Assembly: GCA_019096065.1 (NCBI GenBank)
Contig: JAGUCH010000006.1
Span: 4,732,001-4,796,000 of the forward strand
Direction of reading: 5' to 3'
Length of the DNA stretch: 64,000 bases
Origin: Paracyclopina nana
Lineage: Eukaryota > Arthropoda > Copepoda > Cyclopoida > Cyclopettidae
Shown: one piece after another, positions 6,479-62,578 of the stretch
Numbering within the stretch: position 1 is the stretch's first letter
Layout: every line of letters starts with the position of its first letter
Translations under genes and position numbers: made by a program
Notes under the pieces: generated by a model
Seen by the model: only the letters and a program-made list of their open reading frames with translations
Database searches by the model: none
What the model was told of the DNA's origin: nothing

Positions 6479-14184
<7,706 letters not shown>

Positions 14185-14887: not shown

Positions 14888-16386
14888 ATGGCTCCGGGAG
14901 TGGACGAAGTGACAAAGCATTCAGTGCACACACTTGTTTTTCGATCTCAAAAACGAACGCACGAATTGTTCATTTCGGATCAAGGATCTCTGCCGGAAAC
15001 TGATCCTGACCTAGAGACTTTCATCAAGAAGCTTAAAGCAAAATCGTATTACAGCGAGAACCTGGTTAAGTATGTGGACAAAGCCAATCAGAAGAAGCAG
15101 CAATTTGACTCGAGACCTGAAAACTTGACTTCAGAAAATTCAGATGCGTCTGGAGCTAAGGTAGAAAATGATGATAGCTCTATTGCAAATTCAAGCAACT
15201 CTTCATCCATTGGCGGCCAATTGGTGGCCTTTACTGGAGGTGAGCAAATTTTGACAACGATCTATTTATTGTTCCATAAGCTATGTATTTCGTATTAGGC
15301 AACCAAATTCAAACCAAAAAAGCAATGACGATGTCAATGCCAAAGCCAACTTGGCATGCTCCATGGAAGTTATACAGGGTTATTTCTGGCCACACTGGAT
15401 GGGTTCGCAGTGTTGCCATCGAGCCAGGAAATGAGTGGTTCTGCACAGGAGCTGCGGATCGAGTTATCAAAATCTGGGACTTGGCCTCTGGAAAATTGAA
15501 ACTCTCTCTGACTGGCCACGTGTCCACTGTGAGAGGACTCGTTGTGTCCCCAAGGCAGCCGTACTTGTTTTCCTGTGGTGAGGACCGACAGGTTAAATGC
15601 TGGGACTTGGAATACAACAAGGTCATCCGCCATTACCATGGCCACTTGTCTGCTGTCTACGGCTTGGCATTGCACCCTACAATCGACGTACTTGTCTCAT
15701 GTGGCCGAGATGCCACAGCACGCGTTTGGGACATGCGCACCAAGGTGAACATTCACACTCTAGGTGGACACACCTCCACTGTGAGCAGTGTGGTTTGCCA
15801 AGCCACTGACCCTCAGATCATCACAGGTAAGACTATAATCGATATTTCGATGACAACTAGATATAAAATCTCTTGATTTGTAGGCTCAAATGACCAGACT
15901 GTTAGGTTGTGGGACTTGGCTGCTGGTAAATCCATGTGCACACTTACCCACCATAAAAAGAGTGTGCGTTCTGTGGTTCTGCATCCGAAGTTGTACATGT
16001 TTGCCTCAGCATCGCCTGATAATATCAAGCAGTGGAAGTGCCCCGAAGGAAAGTTCATCCAGAACTTGTCAGGTCATAATGCCATCATAAATTGCATGGC
16101 TGCCAACTCTGATGGTGTGCTCGTGTCCGGTGCTGACAATGGCACTATGCATTTCTGGGACTGGAAAACCGGCTACAACTTCCAGAGGCTACAAGCTCCT
16201 GTTCAACCAGGTTCGCTTGATAGCGAGGCTGGCATCTTTGCCATGGCTTTTGACCATTCGGGAAGCAGACTCATTACTTGCGAGGCCGACAAGACGATCA
16301 AAGTGTACAAAGAGGACGAGACCGCTACTGAAGACAGCCACCCTGTCAACTGGAAGCCTGACCTGCTGAAAAGGCGCAAGTTTTGA
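14888..16386 (+). CDS. Plrg1: Pleiotropic regulator 1 (PLRG1/Prp46), WD40 spliceosome protein
   Basis: Three exons (14888-15239, 15299-15826, 15884-16386) encode 460 aa. Residues 1 to about 140 are helical and low-complexity; from about residue 145 a seven-bladed WD40 propeller follows, starting with the family signature [18 protein letters not shown] and containing repeated GH...WD units (VIKIWDL, VKCWDL, ARVWDM, VRLWDL, IKQWKC, MHFWDW). The C-terminus [12 protein letters not shown] is conserved in PLRG1. The protein belongs to the Prp19/CDC5L (NTC) complex, which joins the spliceosome at activation, and acts in the nucleus. Human PLRG1 is 514 aa; this one is shorter, mainly before the propeller. 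The poly(A) signal AATAAA begins one nucleotide after the stop codon. The neighbour Prp8 is a direct partner in the activated spliceosome. Confidence 0.96.
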
Positions 16387-25805: not shown

Positions 25806-26801
25806 ATGGCTGTGACGCCTTCAGCAGACTCCAGCTCTGCAGCCTACAGTCCACTGAAAAAGGAAATTTTCCAAGTGCACGCAAAGTTCTCGGATTTCTT
25901 TGGCTCGTCCAACGAAGATGTGTTCAAGCCAGCTCTGGATAGTCTTACCAACACCAGTTCAACCATCAATGATGAAGAGGTAAGATAACTTCCAATAGGA
26001 GCCTAATCGTGGACTTGATTGGCTTTCTATTCGATTACTTTGCATTTGCATGCTTACAGCAATGCAATTATGCTAGAAAACATTTTGTGCTCCTCAGGAA
26101 GATGAAATCACGAGTAGCCTGTATACTGAAGAGGAGCCAGATCAGCTTTTTCAACTCCCCCCAATTCGTGACGAGTGGAGGGCTCTTTTTGACCTATTCG
26201 ATCCCGAGGGCTTTGGTGAAATTCCACTCGCAGACTTTGAAGAAGCGCTGGAAAGCCGAGAGTTTATCACTCACATCTCGCCAGGCAAGCTCATCATTCT
26301 TCGAGACAAGTTAATCGCCCATCGACAAATGGGAATTTCAGCTGTGACCTTTCAAGAGTTTGTCAACACCTTGTCAGGGAAGAGAACACTTAGCTTCAAA
26401 TGCGCAGTTCACGCCAAAGACAAGCAGGTATTGTGCATAATTACCCGGGAAATAATGGAAGCAAATAAAGCTAATGACATTTCGATTTGTACCACGTAGG
26501 TCAGTCAACCTGGAGACTTTCACTTGCGCAGGGAAGAGTCGATCTTCAGCATTAGCGACCGGTTAACCGAAGTGCTCGCCAATGAGACGCTAACTGATGA
26601 CCGAGACCGCAAATGGTTCCTCTACTCGACGCAAAGCAAAAAATGCTGCCTTCTATGGCCACCCCCGTGGCTACTTATCACCATATCCATCACCCAAATT
26701 GTTCTCTACTACTACAACTCAGTGGCTGAACACCCCCTCGTTTTGCACCCCTTAAAGCTACACGAGCCCTGGAGATACTTCACCTACTTCTTGGTACACA
26801 T

Positions 26802-26806
26802 TGACC
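26802..26806. other. Target-site duplication, left copy (TGACC)
   Basis: The five bases TGACC directly before the 5' LTR are repeated directly after the 3' LTR at 30680-30684. They belong to the rhomboid exon. Confidence 0.9.
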
Positions 26807-27039
26807 TGTCTGAAATATTTCGCTACTATATTTGAATATTCCCGCTCTTTATATTTTCCCTCCCTCTCGTTAAACTCGTCAGCTTCAGCTGAATAAAACA
26901 GTTACGTTCCACCTTTCAAACCAACAAGTTGTTCATCTCGATTTATTCGATAGATTCCAAACTTATACAAAAGTATTACTTCGTAAAGTCATCGGCAATT
27001 TTCTCCAAGGACTAGTATCCGGGTAGCAAATTGCTTACA
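26807..27039 (+). repeat. 5' LTR (233 bp)
   Basis: Starts TGTCTGAAATATTTCGC and ends AAATTGCTTACA. It contains TATATTT and TTTATATTTT stretches that could be core promoter elements and an AATAAA at about 26891-26896 that could serve as poly(A) signal. Identical to the 3' copy. Confidence 0.95.
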
Positions 27040-27051
27040 TGGCGCCCAACG
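27040..27051 (+). other. Primer-binding site, tRNA-Lys type
   Basis: TGGCGCCCAACG is complementary to the 3' end of animal tRNA-Lys (CUU type, ending CGTTGGGCGCCA). It begins at the base after the LTR. Confidence 0.8.
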
Positions 27052-27396
27052 GATTGCAGCAAGAACCAAACTTCCTGCCACCCTGGGTGTAAGAATACGC
27101 CTCGAAAGGCAGTAGCTCATGGGGCTTGATTTCAAAGGCCTGCTTATAAGCAACCCTTTGGATCTCGGAGGCCTGCAATAGCAACCCTCCGGCTCAAGCT
27201 AACAGTGTCTGGCACAAAACTTGGCCTTGAAAGTCCTCAAACGAGTGAAATCCCCCGGCATCGGCTCTATCCCATCCCCCGGCATCGGCCCAAAGGCAAA
27301 TCCCGAGGCATCGGTGGAAGCAAATCCCGAGGCATTAGATCTCCGCAAGCACTGGAAAACCCGAGTTCCAGCACTCAATCCTGCAACTTTACTAAC

Positions 27397-27517
27397 GGCA
27401 TCGGCAAAAGCAAATCCCTTGGCATCGGCTCAAGCAAATCCCGAGGCATCGGCAAAAGCAAATCCCTTGGCATCGGCTCAAGCAAATCCCGAGGCATCGG
27501 CTCAAAAGCAAATCCCA
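27397..27517 (+). repeat. 24-bp tandem repeats (GGCATCGG-x-AAGCAAATCCC)
   Basis: Two alternating 24-bp units, one with GGCATCGGCAAAAGC and one with GGCATCGGCTCAAGC, form two copies of a 48-bp higher-order unit (27397-27444, 27445-27492) plus a partial one. Looser copies extend upstream to about 27255. The unit length is a multiple of three, so open frames run through it, giving GIGKSKSL/GIGSSKSR octapeptides in one frame. Confidence 0.85.
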
Positions 27518-27976
27518 GAGGTAAAGACGCAAAAACCACGTGGCAAGTTCGGCTTCGAGTGATCTTCAGACAAGTGAAATCCCACGGCTTTCTATAAACG
27601 TTCCCGTGGCATGAGACCTTGCCTTTCATCACTAAAACCCAAGCTCCCACCTGGCCTTCTTCTCGTTGACTTGACAGTCAAATTTTCACTTTTTCCAGTT
27701 CTAAAGAACTAATTCCGTTCTATTTTCAGGTCCAACAGGACCAGTGAACCCCACCCAGACGTTCCTAAGGCTCAAAAGACCCAAAAGGACGTCGACCTCT
27801 TTTCTATCTATCCTATTCCGGAGAGACTCAGAAGCCAATCCGGACTCAACTTCTTCTTACACCCAGTTAAAACTGTCGCTGTTTAAGAACAATAAAGGAC
27901 CAAATTGCTTGCATAAACTGCTTACTTATCAATAAAAGGTTTAGTTCTTGAATAGCAAACTCCCTTAATTACTAAC

Positions 27977-28927
27977 ATGGCTAGCGCAATGAACACGAGT
28001 TCACCCAATCAGTCTGACGAGGAAAGTCCTCAGAGACATTGGAAGCTTGTCTACAAGGAACTCGAGACTGAAATGCAAACTATTCAGGCTCAATATGATG
28101 CTTGGTACCAAGTCATGCCTGATGTCATGAAAAAGGACATCAAACCGTACATGAGACAGCTCAAAAAACTTAAGCCAATAATCTCACACCTCGACAAGGA
28201 AGTTGAAGCTTTCGAGGAAGACACAGACTTCATCGATGCCGAAGATGGCGAGGCCAGAGACAAGGCTTTAATCATCCTCAGGGAAAAAATGGAAATGATC
28301 CTCATTAGGAAAAAAGGCTGGTTTGCAAGGTTCAGGCGATACCATGCTGAATATGAAATGCAGGAATCTACAATTAGCACAAGCTGCACAGCTCTATCAA
28401 AGCCTTCAACCAGCGCTCAAACGGGCGACTGGAACGATGCGCAAATGGCACTCAAAACCCCATCAAAACAAAAATTGGAGCTAACTCCAGCACCCCAAAC
28501 GGAAATGGGTAGCAAACCTTGCAAAGATCTTCTTGGAAATCCAGAAAACAAGGCCAATGACGCCTATGAGACAATCAAAGCAACAGAACTGAAGCAAACT
28601 GTTGAAAACTTCGAAAATGATCCCAATACCGATCAATTTGAAGCAAAAATCGTCTTAAAAACCCAACAAGCAAAAGCTGAAAGTGGGCAGACGAGATCAA
28701 CTACGAATTGGCTTTCACTTTTTCACTCTTTTGCGCGTATCGCTTATCGCAGCGCACCACCTTGGCCAATCCCTCATCGAAGTGCACCACCTTGGCCAAT
28801 TACAAAAAACCCGATACAAGTCGGCAAAATTCGTGCAACTCTTTCTAGTCACTTTTGCCCCCTTAAAATATCATCAGGCATGACAAACAAGGGGGCGAAT
28901 CATACCTATCAAGGGTTAAAAACTTGA
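27977..28927 (+). CDS. Gag-like protein of the LTR element
   Basis: A single 316-codon frame starting at ATG 27977. The first about 135 residues are highly charged and helical (HWKLVYKELETEMQTIQAQY, then KKLKPIISHLDKEVEAF), as expected of a capsid/matrix-type gag segment. The remainder is Lys/Gln/Thr-rich. Near residue 257 two copies of a SAPPWPI motif are encoded by a short direct DNA duplication (about 28747-28800). No CCHC zinc knuckle is present. It could help packaging of the element's RNA; this is inferred from position only. Confidence 0.6.
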   Translation: MASAMNTSSPNQSDEESPQRHWKLVYKELETEMQTIQAQYDAWYQVMPDVMKKDIKPYMRQLKKLKPIISHLDKEVEAFEEDTDFIDAEDGEARDKALIILREKMEMILIRKKGWFARFRRYHAEYEMQESTISTSCTALSKPSTSAQTGDWNDAQMALKTPSKQKLELTPAPQTEMGSKPCKDLLGNPENKANDAYETIKATELKQTVENFENDPNTDQFEAKIVLKTQQAKAESGQTRSTTNWLSLFHSFARIAYRSAPPWPIPHRSAPPWPITKNPIQVGKIRATLSSHFCPLKISSGMTNKGANHTYQGLKT

Positions 28928-30446
28928 ATTTTAAATTACAAAAATGCGGAGAAAATCCCATTGCATTGTGCAATTTGACATTGTTCAAATTTCCGCTAAA
29001 GCAAAAATGATCCAATGGCTTTAAACTGAAGTCAAAAGCTAGATATAAAAACATGATGAACTCATTTTTGCTAGAATTCAATCAAAAGACAGAATTCTTA
29101 CATTTCTATGAGTAAACTCATATTTTGATAATCATCCGCAAAATTCTAACTGAAAAAATCCTCGCAAATCCGGAAAGACCGGATCATACTCAGAAACTCC
29201 GTAGGCTTAAAGCTAAAGCAAAAGCAATACGAAAACCGAGTTTTTTACAAAAAGAAACTTGCACTTTCTTTCCTCATTCGCGAAGCGCAAAAAGAAGCGT
29301 TTCTGAGTATCAATTCTAATCTAAAGAAAGAATTGACTAGCTTTAAAGCATTCATACTTCATACTTCTTGCGATGCTTCTAAAAAAGCTTCCTGCGTAAC
29401 AGTTTATCTTCGCATCATTTACAATGATGAACGCGGGGAACAAAAAGCTGAAGCTAACCTTAAAACCTAAAAAGCTCTGACAAATCCGGAAACTTTCTAA
29501 CACACTCAGAAACTCCGTCAGGCTTAAACCTAAAGGAAAAGCAATCTAAAAAAGAAAAAGTTTGTATCGTTTCTGAGTGTCAATTCTGATCTAAAGAAAG
29601 AATTGGAAAGTTTCAACGCAAAGGGCAACCTTGGATACCTGTTGAAACAATCTCTGCATGGTCTGATTTGTATAAAAGATCCTTCAAACTGAGTCAAATA
29701 TTCAACGAAAAAAAGGGAGAAACTCCCAAAGGAATCTGACATTCCAAAACTCAAAGCTCTGGAAAGACTAGATGCTTTATTCGCTGACCAAAAAGGCGGA
29801 AAAGGCTTTCTACAAACAAAGCTATCAAACCTGTCCCCTTTTGACCACTGAAAAATACAAATTAAAACCTGCAAAGAGAGAAATATATTCAATTAGACGA
29901 TTGATTCCACTTAATATTCTCTAAAAACGCGGGGAAAATAACACGAAAGTGTCGATTTAAGTTCTAAACGCGGGGAACTTTGAATTTGGAAACTGCGTGA
30001 AATCAAAACAAAAACAAAGGACTCGGCATCAAGCTTAGAGCCAAAGTTAAAACCGAGTCTAAATGACGTCACGAATTCTCGCAAAACTTGAGCAATTCCA
30101 AGGTTTAATTACTTCGTAATTGCGGGGAAAAAGTAAGAATTGCTCCATAACATTACGTACAGTTTAAAAACTCATGAAATGCGCAAATCGCGGGGAAAGT
30201 CAAACGGCGATCCGATCCTCTCAAAATATTGCACGAGAAAACTCGCACCCAAAAGACGAACCAGAAGCCCAAAAGTAAGGACTCCCCACTCTACATTGAC
30301 AAGAGCAACGAGCTACGCAAAAGGATACACAACACAGGATCAAAGCTGACCCCAGGCTACTCGCCACCCTAACAAGAACTATTGGACAAGAGAGAAGGAG
30401 AAGGCTCAATATTCGAACGTATAAAGCATTGTGCTTTAGCGGGGAA
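28928..30446 (+). other. Internal 3' region of the LTR element without coding capacity
   Basis: 1.5 kb with no long frame and no pol motifs. It contains an imperfect duplication (29165-29337 and 29481-29604) and repeated CGCGGGGAA motifs at 29432-29440, 29928-29936, 29969-29977, 30121-30129, 30189-30197 and 30439-30446. Confidence 0.6.
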
Positions 30447-30679
30447 TGTCTGAAATATTTCGCTACTATATTTGAATATTCCCGCTCTTTATATTTTCCC
30501 TCCCTCTCGTTAAACTCGTCAGCTTCAGCTGAATAAAACAGTTACGTTCCACCTTTCAAACCAACAAGTTGTTCATCTCGATTTATTCGATAGATTCCAA
30601 ACTTATACAAAAGTATTACTTCGTAAAGTCATCGGCAATTTTCTCCAAGGACTAGTATCCGGGTAGCAAATTGCTTACA
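30447..30679 (+). repeat. 3' LTR (233 bp)
   Basis: Identical to 26807-27039 by direct reading. It is preceded directly by the purine tract GCGGGGAA and followed by the second TGACC duplication. Confidence 0.95.
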
Positions 30680-31247
30680 TGACCTCTCCTCACTAGTGGT
30701 CAATCTCTTTGTCCAGCTAATTGTGGGCATTCCCCTGGAGCTTGTCCACGGTAGCTTTCGTATCGGGCTAATCTACTTTTGCGGAGTCCTCTATGGCTCC
30801 TTGGCAGCCTCCATTTTCGACCCGCATGTCCGGCTGGCTGGAGCCAGTGGGCCAGCTTATGCTTTGCTCTCGGCTCATTTGGCAAATGTGATGCTGCACC
30901 ATGCAAAAATGTCCAGGCCCTTTCTCAGATTAGTGGGACTGCTCCTCGTTGCGAGCCTTGAGGTTGGGTGTGGCATCTACAGGCGCTATGCTCCGCCCGA
31001 GCCAGAAAAACCGCAGGTGGGCTTCACTGCGCACTTGGCCGGCGTGCTCGCCGGCCTCACCTTCGGACTGGTTATTCTCAGGAATTATGAGCAAAAGCTG
31101 AGCGAGCGACGGGTCTGGTGGGTGACGCTGCTACTCTTGCTACTCCTCAACTTGGTGGCCTTTCTGTACCAAAGACTGAGACACAATCCGGCCTTCACGC
31201 TCTTTTGCCCCTCGGGGCAAAACTGCCCGCAACTCTACCATGACTGA

Positions 31248-35338: not shown

Positions 35339-38300
35339 TCATGAAGATTCTCCAGTTCGTATTACTTTCAGCAGTAAATTCACATTGTTTGTTTTGATTG
35401 CATTTCTACAGTCTGAAATAACTTTTGATTTGGATTTCCCAGCTGAAAACAGAAATCAGTGCGACCTTAGCCTAAAAGCCATGGATAAATAAGCACAAAA
35501 TTCCTCACCTCGAAGGCGTCCTGCTTTCTGAATGATCTGATTAATATCTTTCAACGTCTCCATCAATTCTTGGTGATTGTTCACCCTAATTTGGTATCCT
35601 GCCACCAAATCTCGGTTGATATCGTACAATTGCCCATACCACTTTTTCATGCTTTTCCTATATAGGAGCAAAGTTGCGCGGGGGAGTGAAAGGAACCTTC
35701 CGTTGAATAAAGTGTAAATATACTCACATATCCATCATTAGCCTAGAATCTTCTGCTCTCACAATCAAACTTCTGATGATGCCTGAATGATCTGCCATTT
35801 CAGCAGACAGCCTTTGACGAACACTTTGCATGTCATCGGCCCTAGCCAAAAGGTGTTCAATTTTCTCAAATTCCTCGGGAAAGTCACACACAGATGGCAA
35901 GTCATCAAGGCCTAAATATTCAGAAAGTGATTGCACAATATCTCCACAGAGGTCCATATCGTCACAAAGAATTTGCACCCGTCCATCAGCCTCCATTTTG
36001 ATATGAAGCTCCTTAAAAAAAAAGAAATATAATGAAACATGAACTGCTTCTGGTAATCAAATATCTGCCTACGTTAGGACGGTTTCTGAGGCAGACAAAA
36101 ATTAGAGTGGATAATTGCCCATTTTCATCTGGCGTGATTTCGTCATCTCCAAGCAGAAATGACTGGTTAATCCACATTGCCACCCTTGCAGCCCTCTCAT
36201 TGACCTTGAACTCGACATTTCCGATCGGGGGTGGCCTTTTCTCAGTTGGGCTCGGTGGAGGGCTCCCATCGCCAGCTGCTTCTTTCAGCAGAGCGCTAAG
36301 AAAGGTTGCGTGAGTTCCAAAACAAAAAGTTCCGAGGATAATTGACTTACTCAGTAATGCGGCAGTACATAGAAAACCTGGGCAGTTGCCTCGTCATTTC
36401 GAAAACGTGGTAGTGCTTGCTATTTCTATATCCCACAAATGCTTTGATGTGAAGATCCACAGGGATATCTCTTGGCGGGTAAATAGGAGCCACAATTGAT
36501 TGCGAGGGATCCCTTGGGTGCACCACCTGGCATTCTCCCTCGAAAATGCCCTCCGCAAAAATCAGGACACACTTTATGAGGGTGTCGTTTGAAGTTGACA
36601 GGCTGACTTCAACGTGAGGCTAAAAAATTTGAAATTGGTATTCTAGCAATTCTTTAAAAGCTGCTAATCGTGCGTTTAGCTTATTTAGCAAATGGCTTTT
36701 GTGTTTACTGCTAGGCAGTAATTTACATAATTTCGTGCAGAATTTAGTACAGATTGTCCCATAATGATCGGAGCTACTATATGCAACATTTTCTTGGCAG
36801 AACTTTTTCTGATAGCAATTAATGGGACACTCTGTTTATAATGTAAGCATTAGTTACTATTGCGGTGATGTTTTTTATATGTAATGGGTGCGCTAGCTTT
36901 TCAAACCTGAATTGGATAATAATCAGCGCGAATCTGCCTTGATCCCCTAGTTATGTAAACCTTTTCGTAAATTAGAGCAGTACACATCTATAAAAAAGGC
37001 ACACACATAATTAAAAAGCAAGAGCTCACCGATTTGCCATCCATGCCTAAATTGAGGGCTAATGAAGTGGAAAGCTGCGTTTGGGCTGGAATTATTCCCA
37101 TTGTGTCGTTATTGATGGGTGTAGCACCAGATGCATTTGCCTTGGTAGCAGCTAGCAAAATTCCAGCGCCAGAAGGAGCCAACTTTGAATTTTCCTCATA
37201 GTTTCTCAACTCTAGCAGCATATTTTGCCTGCGTTGCGTCATTTCCCTAATGGTATCTTGTTCACTAGATTGGTCAAACATTTTCGACCTCGTTTCTGCA
37301 TTTGACGGCAAAAATCCCCGGATTTCACCCTCAGTTGCACATGCTACCAACTCGAGTCTTCCATCCATTCTGTAGTCTCCTTGAGCCAAGCCAGCGATTG
37401 TATGGTTGAAATTGTCTTTGAAGACCACCTCGCCAGACCTGTCATTTCTAGCATCCAGCTTTCCATTTGACCAGCCAGTTATGAGCTCCTTGACGCCATC
37501 GCCATCCAAGTCATAACCAAAAATGCATGTGGCATTATTTTTCGATTTGATTCTCCACCACCTCGTGGTTTTTTCATAGACTCCTACTGTGCCATTGGCT
37601 AGTGCGTACCCAAATCTTCCCTCTTCGACTTGCGCCAAAGCAGTGACGGCTTCTGTTTCAGTGATTTCAGCCAGGATCTCATCCTCAGCGAATATTCTGA
37701 TTTCAAAGTCTTCCGAGCCAACGACAAGTCTCTTATTTCCATTGGCATGATAGTCCACCATTGTCAGGCTCGACACATTGTCCCCAGTAACAGTCCAAAA
37801 TGGATCATTTCCTTCATGATCAAAGCCTTGAATTGAACAATTTCCCCCAACGATTGCCAAGGGCTGTTTCCCAGTGTTAGCCAGGCCTAATGTGCCTACT
37901 ACCAAGGCATTTACACCGTCTGGCACATCTTTGTGGAACAAATCAGCATTTCTCTCCACATCATAGGCTAGCAGATTGGTTGGAGTTCCAATTAGTAAAA
38001 CATCCCTGTTGGAATCAGGGTCTAGCCTGCCAGCTTGTAGTGCTGTCACGCGTTGATTGATGTTCAACATGGCAATATCTTGATTTGGTTGCATTGATGC
38101 CATCCTCCCAGAAGGAGCAGACATGCCTAAATGCATTCAAATGTTAATCTGACTGTTGCATACCGTCTACATTGATACATCATTTCTTGTGCTTTTTACC
38201 TGTTAATTTCTGGTGGGGATTGTGTAAGAGCACTTTTTCACCGGTTGTAGCTGCAACCAGACAAGGATGCTCCCCATCGAACTCTCCTATTGAAATTCTA

Positions 38301-38804: not shown

Positions 38805-41800
38805 ATGGCCGGTAGATCTTTCCATTCGAGGCCTGGAAAATCTCAACTTTACTCCAGATCCGCGTCAGAGACCCACAACAGTTCACTAATTGGCGAAGAT
38901 GACCTGAACGGAGGGGTTGGCGACAATGATCGAAATGTATTGGTGCAGCACGATCAACTGCAAATGCAAAGTACGTCCCTATTTCAAGTTTTTATAGCGT
39001 TTCATAAACTGTTGTCAAGCAAATTGAGCAACGCATTCTTGTGGTGACGATAAACGCTTTGCTTGTGAAACATTAGTTTAAAGTGTTGATTGCAAATGGA
39101 ACTCGGCTGTCAAATCTCTTTAATTCGTTTTCCTTCCTCAGATCCAGTTCGACCATCGAGCATTAACACCAATAATGGGAATATTCATCACGATGTATCG
39201 CCTTCCTTGTCCACTCCATCGGAATCCAGCACTGATCTTCCAAACACGGTCGGAAATACAGCCAGAAGAGACAATGGATCACTTTTATATGAAGAAGTCC
39301 TTGAAGAATTCCCGTCCGAATTCCAGCAACATCACTCACAACAAAGAAGGCAACAATGGGAATCAAACTATAAAGAGGCTGCCATTTTCCTTGAGGTTAC
39401 CGCGCTACTACCTATTGTTGATTCAAAATGAGCTAAATGATTCATTTGCAGGAAGGAACGAATAATGACAAGTTCAGCCATCATCCCCGAAGCTTTGACC
39501 ACTTACCGGCTTACTTGTTGGTGCACAACAAGTGGTTCAATGCTCTTGACCTCGGTGCAGCCTTAGTGCTGCTTTGCCTAGGCTTCGTGGAAGAGCCTTG
39601 CCTAGGAAAACTTCAAGTCCCAGTACAAGTCCATGGTGCTATTGAGCTGTGTGCCCTCGTGCTCATTGGAGTGCAGGTGGCCCTGAAAACCAGGTGGATA
39701 GGGCTGAGGACTTTCATGCGGCACAAAAGAACTGCTATCAAAGTCTTAACATTGGCTATCATGACACTTGAAGCCTTGGTGGTGTTAGTCAACAGCCGCA
39801 ATCACTTTAGGATAACCAGATCACTGAGGCCCATTTTCCTCATTGACAACTACTTTTGTGGAGGTGTCCGGCGCTTCGTACGTCAAATTTTACAAAGTCT
39901 CCCTCCGATCCTGGACATGCTAGCCCTCGTCTTCTTTGTCATGCTTATTTACAGCGTATTCGGGTTTTACTTCTTTGGCGACATCGACCTCGAAAACTTC
40001 CAGACTTTGTCCAAATCATTTGTCAGCCTTTTTGTTCTACTAACCACAGCTAAGTATGTAGTAGTTCTATTAATGCTATAGCATGCGAAGGCTCACAAAC
40101 ATGTGTTGTTGTTTTTTGTGCTATTGCAGCTATCCAGATGTAATGATGAAAAGCTACAGCTTTAGTCCATGGTCTTCGGCTTTTTTCATATCCTACTTGG
40201 CTGTTAATCTGTACTTCCTCATGAACTTAATGCTGGCCGTCGTGTATGATGCGTTCACACGCATTGAAAAAGACAAGTTTCGAAGACTCTATTTGCACAA
40301 ACGGAAGGCTGCACAACATGCGTTCAAACTTTTGGTGACTCAGGAAAGGCCTGATGAAGTTAGTTTCCAGCACTTTGAAGGACTTCTCACCTTCTACAGG
40401 CCCAGAACGAGTATGAGCTATCTTGAATAATTATTATTGCTCAAATTGATAATGCTGTTGCTTTCTAGCTCCAACTGAGGCATATCTGATGTTCAAGCTC
40501 CTTAATAAGACAAACACTGGCTACCTGAACACCGAAGAATTTTACGGTAAGCTTAATTCTTACATAATAAAGCAACAAAAAGCGAGCAGGTTGTGGAGCT
40601 ATCCTGGTGCAAAGAAAAGAATGAAAGCTTTTAGCTAATTACTCGCTCTTTGGTAATTGCATAAACCATGTGCCGTCTCTTTCCAGACGTGTATGATGCA
40701 TGTCAGTACAGTTGGAACATTGGCCGCCCCATGACTGAATGGTACAATGATATGAGGCCCTCAGTTCGTCGATGTTTGGCATTGCTTCACAAACTTGTCA
40801 CAAGCTCTTGGTTCGAGTACACTATCTGTGAGGGATCATGCTTGTATGACGAGAGTCTAGTTGTATTAAATAACTTGTTTTTTGTTACAGGTTTAGCCGT
40901 TTTGGCAAATGGAGTCATTTTGATAATACAAACCAGCCTTATGTCTTCGCCCAAAGATGATTCTTCCAGCATTTATTCTCCATGGGTGTCTTATGCTTTC
41001 GTTGCATGTGAGCCAAGTCTTATTATGATTATAGCAAGAATATTCATTTTCATAGAGGCTTTCCTCTTTTTTCCTCCCATATAGTATACACAGTTGAGGC
41101 GAGCATCAAACTATTGGGACTGGGCTCGTACCAATATTTCTCCTCGTATTGGAACACTTTCGACTTTTGTGTCACACTCTTGGGCATTTTGGCACTCATA
41201 TTTGAGTTCATTGACATCCCACTATCCTACATCATCATTCTCAGGCCCCTGAGGTAAAAAATGGTTTATTTTTAATTGAAACGAAAGCTTTGCGGCGCAT
41301 GGCGTGAGAACCTTTTTTTGTGCCAATGGTTGGTGCCATCCAAGCAATGTACAAAAGAATGCCAGCATTTCTCCCTCGAGGAGCGTGTCTTTCTCGCGTC
41401 GACGTAGTTTGCTCAAAGAATGTTGCAGCTAATATGGAATGAAAATTTTCTTTCCCCAGGCTGTTGACCCTTTTTCGGATGAAACGACGTTTCCGTGATG
41501 TCTTTGGAACAGCAGTGATTCTGATGCCTCGATTAATATCCGCTCTGATTGTCCTGCTTCTAACCTACTACTTTTTTGCCATTATTGGCATGGAGTTTTT
41601 TGGCCACATGGATTTAACCGACTGCTGCAAGAATACATCGATGGAACAATACTACAGGTCCGGAAACGAGACTGGCTACTACTATCTGAACAACTTTCGC
41701 AGCCTCCCCATATCTGGAGTGACTTTGTTTGAGCTGACCGTGGTGAACAACTGGTTTATCATAATGGACGGCTATGCCATCGCCTCTGGCACTGAACTGA

Positions 41801-61600: not shown

Positions 61601-62578
61601 GGACAGTTCGTCACTACAGGCTGTCAGTAGCGGAATATGCAAGGCTTCGTCTAATGCCTGGTCAATCATGCAAACAGAGTCCGAATTCCTAATGAGGACT
61701 TCCACGATATCGAGCTTAACGTTCAAATCCGGATCGACCTTCTTGAGGTCTTCGTTCACAGGAAAAAGACTGGGTGTGAACACAATGGCCAAGCTTCTGG
61801 AATCCATTTTGTTCGAGGCCGAATTGGCGGCGACTTTCGACAAAAATCGTACAAGGCATGTCAATGATGAGGCATGCAATGGAGGTAGTAAAAGACAAGC
61901 GGACAAAATTGCATCAATTTTCTGCTCGGAATTGGACAATTTACAGCACCTGAGGAAAAAAAATAAAAGCTTCAGTAATAAACTCAGGTGACGACTGTTA
62001 TGCCCTGGGGCTACAATGTGTCATAAACAAGAAATGAGACTTGTGACCGTTTCGACTACTGCATAATGCCCCACTTACTTGATAAATGTGTCATGAAATC
62101 GTGTGGGTATCAATGGTTCGGGCAGCTCCCGCAGCCATTGTTTCAGCAAACTGCCGACATCCAAGGCCGAAATTGTATCTTGACTGGTGCCAATAAAAAA
62201 TGTCTCGGCTTCCTCAATTTCAACCCTCATGGCACGCTGGCGTCCGGCACTGCCAGCCTTGCGAAAAAGGCCATCCGTATCAATGTGTTCAGTGAGGAAA
62301 TTCAAAATCGCCACTAGAAAATGAGGCACTCGAAGATCGCAGCCTCCGTCCAGAATGAGCGAGGTTGGGGCAAGGTCTCGCAAAGGCCGTCCAAATACAC
62401 TTGAGATGGTGGTGGCAGCCGCGGCTTTTTTTCCAGGAGTTCCAGGGAAATGTCGACTTTTGGTCGCCTTGTGTGGCTTTGAAAGTCCGACCCCCAATGA
62501 CTTGAGTTTATCTCTACAAAGGCCGTGAAGGCCCCTCAAAGACTCGGGGTCATTGGCCAAGCTCGAACAGTGCTTCAT
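58649..62578 (-). CDS. Arhgap11a: ARHGAP11A-like Rho GTPase-activating protein
   Basis: Seven coding exons (62578-62079, 61949-61464, 61404-61046, 60983-59941, 59885-59531, 59464-59219, 59163-58649) encode 1,167 aa. The RhoGAP domain spans about residues 58-245: VFGRPLRDLAP at its start, the arginine finger in DGLFRKAGS, LLKQWLRELPEPLIPTRFHDTF, and the NKMDSRSLAIVFTPSLFP helix. Position near the N-terminus and a following long basic Ser-rich tail match ARHGAP11A. The tail (about 900 aa) is disordered, with many SP/TP sites, KRK/RRK clusters that can act as nuclear signals, and three RRQSSA(Y/F)E-type repeats near 60200-60280. Orthologues are mitotic proteins that locally tune RhoA at cytokinesis. 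Start ATG 62578 is close to an E2F-like site (62677-62687), in keeping with cell-cycle control. A C-terminal KRHLSDRVVTPRGG stretch may be a phospho-site cluster. Confidence 0.85.

Follow-up and report, generated by a model that had tools for sequence, protein, structure and literature searches.

A non-autonomous BEL/Pao-family element interrupts the final exon of a divergent rhomboid gene in the copepod Paracyclopina nana

The interrupted gene and the element within it

In the cyclopoid copepod Paracyclopina nana the last exon of a rhomboid gene is interrupted by a retrotransposon. The gene is on the forward strand of a 64,000-nucleotide stretch of contig JAGUCH010000006.1 (positions 4,732,001 to 4,796,000; assembly GCA_019096065.1), the whole of which is called the window here and from whose first letter coordinates are counted; features of gene and element are all on that strand. 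By reading frame and splice sites exon 1 is 25806-25979 (58 codons, with a GTAAGA donor); exon 2, placed by frame and Pfam, is 26098-26427 (110 codons, with a degenerate EF-hand region), and GT/AG sites border both introns. The part of the third and last exon that precedes the break (26500-26806), assigned by frame and by alignment with paralogs, encodes the first transmembrane segment (TM1) and the L1 loop, and the 102 codons in its 26500-26805 bring the three exon pieces to 270. At codon 271 a 3873-bp element bounded by long terminal repeats (LTRs), 26807-30679, intervenes in the sense of the gene, after which the frame picks up at 30684 and the resumed exon (30684-31247, by Pfam and residue numbering) runs from TM2 to the C-terminus and the stop at 31245-31247. 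A sequence-only reading of this DNA had put the break after codon 270, with rhomboid codons in frame again after a second copy of TGACC and with the catalytic residues, numbered Ser325 and His387, both downstream; exon arithmetic and residue count agree with it on each point.

Rhomboid matches are found at ten loci in the genome including that of the window, and five of the other nine were aligned with the window gene (C2:10640852, C5:1817966, C2:13435810 and C1:9698252 being left out). The downstream half of the gene is a Pfam Rhomboid domain above cut-off (5.6e-26) and has the GxSG serine and TM6 histidine expected of a rhomboid (Ser325, His387), though the element separates both from the gene's 5′ part. 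In exon 2 EF-hand_6 reaches 20.6 bits where the cut-off is 25 (E 3.3e-4), short of an EF-hand assignment, and by eye both EF-hand loops look degenerate beside those of the C2, C6 and C7 paralogs. Of the earlier label, EF-hand rhomboid protease, the rhomboid core is therefore clear and the EF-hand part weak. TM1 fails a hydropathy threshold of 1.6 and was located by the paralog alignment; the matches among solved structures are two chains of inactive rhomboids, both weak (E 0.0033 and 0.0041).

The earlier claim of two 233-bp LTRs with no difference, flanked on both sides by TGACC, is borne out by direct comparison. The 5′ LTR (26807-27039) and 3′ LTR (30447-30679), each beginning TG and ending CA, are identical, and the target-site duplication (TSD) TGACC stands at 26802-26806 and again at 30680-30684. 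A repeat finder gives the LTR match as 235 rather than the true 233 bp, the two extra bases being the TG with which the primer site as well as the second TSD begins. The primer-binding site (27040-27051) is a 12-nt match to the 3′ end of tRNA-Lys(CTT) plus CCA, with two tRNA-Lys(CTT) genes that fit it in the same genome, and directly before the 3′ LTR is the polypurine tract AGCGGGGAA (30438-30446), which is the same in all nine other copies printed. Direct LTRs with TG..CA ends, a short TSD, and a primer-binding site and polypurine tract adjoining the LTRs, the marks of an LTR retrotransposon, are all present. The 5′ LTR also has an AATAAA in sense to the gene (26892-26897).

Within the element a degenerate leader repeat with a unit of about 24 nt, detected by the repeat finder, occupies 27233-27516 and is spanned by a 155-amino-acid (aa) stop-to-stop frame for which a Pfam scan gave no match. 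The sole start-to-stop open reading frame (ORF) of at least 150 aa, at 27977-28927, encodes 316 aa; its N-terminus is common with that of the gag-position ORF of long copies, its C-terminus differs, and a Pfam scan of it gave no confident match. By tblastn and Pfam, 29116-29921 holds short pol and gag shards in non-collinear order, including, within 29150-29467, a Peptidase_A17 fragment under the cut-off (E 2.7e-4, 21.4 bits versus 22.3).

The genome has at least 40 matches to this LTR, counting the window's two. Twenty stretches were taken for LTR comparison. Fifteen of them supplied the 12 pairs scored in addition to the window's own, three pairs each spanning two neighbouring stretches; L028, L033, L034 and L046 yielded no family LTR pair, L045 was left out, and the remaining LTR places lie outside the coverage. 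A 5-bp TSD accompanies 11 of these 12 pairs; none was seen with the remaining pair, in which an LTR matched only in part. Because TG..CA ends, a 5-bp TSD, a primer-binding site and a polypurine tract coincide at the rhomboid locus, and 11 of 12 other pairs have a TSD of the same length, a chance match is not credible. The insertion is a genuine retrotransposition and an ordinary instance of insertional mutagenesis.

A non-autonomous derivative in a BEL/Pao family

Two long relatives, of 9821 and 9844 bp, are present in the same genome. The ORFs of the 9844-bp copy contain Peptidase_A17 (1.9e-30), DUF5641 and RVT_1 above the Pfam cut-offs and, below them, rve (30.8 versus 32.6 bits), an aspartyl protease and DUF1759, and this domain content is the BEL/Pao set. 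The window element and its ~9.8-kb relative have LTR, leader and gag-start segments in common. What tblastn at 1e-3 recovers of pol amounts to fragments of 37-69 aa that correspond to residues 330-366, 585-664 and 1023-1077 of a 1077-aa pol ORF piece; their order is scrambled and gag pieces lie among them. At that threshold neither the reverse transcriptase stretch (69-171) nor the integrase core stretch (782-865) has a match in the window element. A Pfam scan of the 316-aa ORF and nine of 13 other open frames of at least 70 aa (the four left out being minus-strand frames of 72-76 aa) found, of pol, only the sub-threshold Peptidase_A17 fragment. The intact pol of an autonomous BEL/Pao element, with Pao peptidase, reverse transcriptase and integrase, is thus missing from the window copy, whereas the domains are present in the relative L036, and a complete autonomous element is ruled out. 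Since pol survives only as shards, and LTR, leader and internal segments are common with BEL/Pao copies, the window element is a non-autonomous BEL/Pao derivative, a scrambled product of deletion within the family, which the sequence-only reading does not mention. Longer copies at other genomic sites presumably supplied the proteins for its movement in trans.

Along the element, compared in 120-base bins and numbered from its own start, the closest copy shifts, being L035 at 100% over 121-240, L032 at 97-100% over 241-600, L027 and L040 at 99-100% over 1441-2040, and L040 at 99-100% over 2521-2760. The likeliest origin of this mosaic is template switching between co-packaged RNAs, with gene conversion an admissible if less favored source; such switching is reported for LTR elements (PMC1950507). 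L027 and L040, on different chromosomes, have nearly identical internal ORFs (dS 0, dN 0.003), and the first 93 bases of the window LTR match L027 and not L040, which points to LTR exchange.

A short gag-like ORF of 316-372 aa, mosaic between lineages, is open in six non-autonomous copies including that of the window. The ratio of nonsynonymous to synonymous substitution (dN/dS) is 0.26-0.43 among these ORFs (14 of the 15 pairs giving a ratio) and 0.07 between the two long copies (830 shared codons). Because the short ORFs are mosaic and partly hard to align, their values merely hint at selection, which would at best be weaker than in the long copies. A tentative, and on balance doubtful, extension is that non-autonomous BEL/Pao derivatives keep a short gag-like ORF of their own, spread in trans and reshuffle by template switching with longer copies, giving new mosaics, with exchanged U3 and out-of-order gag and pol shards, whose insertions into coding exons continue; on this view the rhomboid case is one of them and is segregating.

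Other members of the family have features of their own. A copy with identical LTRs, L027:514-3811 (G000:C7), lies ~4.5 kb upstream of the exons, at about 8272-9572, of another EF-hand rhomboid gene, whose loop, read by eye, is DKNKDGKISLQEW; this closeness is probably coincidence. Longer BEL/Pao copies have a conserved third ORF, of 461-515 aa, downstream of pol, which is also present in one 3.7-kb copy, L042. Its four occurrences, L036:710-2092 (-), L038:696-2150 (-), L035:5056-6600 (+) and L042:2415-3812 (+), are 69-90% identical to one another. It is not env-like, since a hydrophobic 19-mer at threshold and a Pfam match are each found in none of the four and there are only 0-2 Cys.

Predicted consequence for the gene and age of the insertion

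Transcription from the gene promoter would reach the 5′ LTR in its sense orientation, where the frame is open for nine added codons to a stop at 26833-26835, with the AATAAA then following at 26892. The likeliest outcome is a truncated message whose reading frame closes there and which is polyadenylated at the LTR signal; as the break is in the final exon, this message should escape exon-junction-dependent decay and be stable. Its predicted product is a stub of 279 residues, comprising the degenerate EF-hand region, TM1 and the L1 loop; lacking TM2-TM6, Ser325 and His387, it would be no protease. The null allele expected from the sequence-only reading accordingly holds as a predicted loss of protease function, both catalytic residues being encoded beyond the break. 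Other rhomboid paralogs probably buffer that loss, and such redundancy would account for tolerance of a null allele.

There is strong reason to believe that a non-autonomous, mosaic element of a BEL/Pao family, presumably mobilised in trans, entered the final exon of this divergent rhomboid paralog fairly recently, leaving a predicted protease-less product of 279 residues whose cost the paralogs probably absorb. Against this weigh the possibility that loss of function was under way in the gene before the element arrived, and the weakness of the splice scan as a test, its matrices being tiny (nine donors, eight acceptors), one of the nine native donors falling below threshold and acceptors being sought no further than 40 nt past the point where the exon resumes.

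Whether the insertion is polymorphic or heterozygous, with an intact allele segregating, is about evenly balanced. Identical LTRs, and a gene elsewhere without stop, frameshift or broken splice site, suggest that it is; against it, a search of the assembly found one copy of the locus only, though a collapsed assembly would look the same in either case. Zero LTR differences are also compatible with long-fixed ages. At substitution rates of 1e-8, 5e-9 and 2e-9 per site per generation, zero differences at 233 sites give 95% upper bounds of 0.64, 1.29 and 3.21 million generations, and the LTRs are identical in 7 of the 12 other pairs, the other five being 95.1-99.6% alike. The element had been called very young: a young LTR element it is, but extreme youth follows only weakly from LTRs of 233 bp that allow 0.64-3.2 million generations in a family where identical pairs are common (7/12). 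By the standards of its family the insertion is young, but the state of the LTRs does not by itself restrict it to the strain that was sequenced.

Less probable, though not remote, is that constraint on the gene had relaxed, or that it had become a pseudo-protease, by the time the element arrived, so that little was destroyed. In an unrooted five-sequence tree of 144 columns without support values (window gene and four paralogs; the C9 paralog, of 99 residues, was aligned but omitted) the window gene has the longest tip, 0.90 versus 0.32-0.61. The TM2 His of the HxxxN motif, which in GlpG we take to be H150, is Ser in the window gene and His in all five aligned paralogs. H150 of GlpG contributes to oxyanion-hole contacts (PMC3690538). 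The residue after GASG is Pro where the five paralogs have Gly, and to this are added the degenerate EF-hand loops. Opposed to relaxed constraint are a frame that is open over 457 codons and the retention in it of both catalytic residues, of Asn in TM2 and of the WR motif, together with the limits of the tree; dN/dS for the window gene is not obtainable from paralogs alone. Of the earlier statement that the rest of the gene has no decay, the lack of stops, frameshifts and broken splice sites stands, and the longest tip, the Ser at the TM2 His and the degenerate loops qualify the remainder. The gene was thus open and protease-like when the element inserted, but not a typical conserved member.

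Splicing that takes the element out, or a functional chimeric transcript, is very unlikely: the frame into the LTR is open and its stop falls in the last exon, but the stub lacks both catalytic residues, and the rough scan found, at the thresholds used, no in-frame donor and acceptor pair that would remove the element as an intron (one or more such pairs turned up in 8 of 100 shuffled elements). An assembly artefact joining an unrelated element into the exon can be dismissed, as nothing was found in its favor and a misjoin is not expected to leave LTRs with exact ends between flawless 5-bp TSD copies, or codons that resume in frame at the TSD.

The locus shows cleanly how a non-autonomous retroelement that is still young has broken a gene in a compact arthropod genome, and the insertion may be a null allele, still segregating, of a signalling-type protease. 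An arthropod host fits the 80 Chitin_bind_4 matches in the genome; a COX1 search gave no match. The locus carries two further cautions, that a pair of identical 233-bp LTRs is not proof of extreme youth and that an absence of stop codons is not proof of full constraint.

Elsewhere in the window Pfam places PRP8 at 7076-13984 (-), a WD40 protein at 15283-15876 (+), BBS2 at 36988-38136 (-), an ion-transport protein at 39437-40081 (+) and a RhoGAP protein at 62075-62578 (-).

Comparison with known systems

Like the EF-hand rhomboids of animals, which we take to be those of the Drosophila Rhomboid-4 and vertebrate RHBDL3 kind, the window gene has an EF-hand-like region before a Ser-His rhomboid core; it differs from them in its degenerate EF loops, in the TM2 His to Ser change and in a core interrupted by an element. 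With the BEL/Pao superfamily of animals the element has in common the Peptidase_A17, RVT_1 and DUF5641 of its ~9.8-kb relative, the 5-bp TSD and the TG..CA ends, whereas the window copy is without an intact pol and is left with a short gag-start ORF and scrambled shards.

Non-autonomous LTR elements of the TRIM and LARD types are described as retaining LTRs, primer-binding site and polypurine tract with pol lost (PMC3532108), and the window element does likewise. It is neither a TRIM, being 3873 bp long with a 316-aa ORF where TRIMs are below about 1 kb and have no coding capacity, nor a LARD, LARDs having LTRs of ~4.4 kb, against 233 bp here, and again no coding capacity (PMC3532108). Identical LTRs and association with exons, both seen in the 3.9-kb copepod element, are also reported for a TRIM family of ants (PMC3532108).

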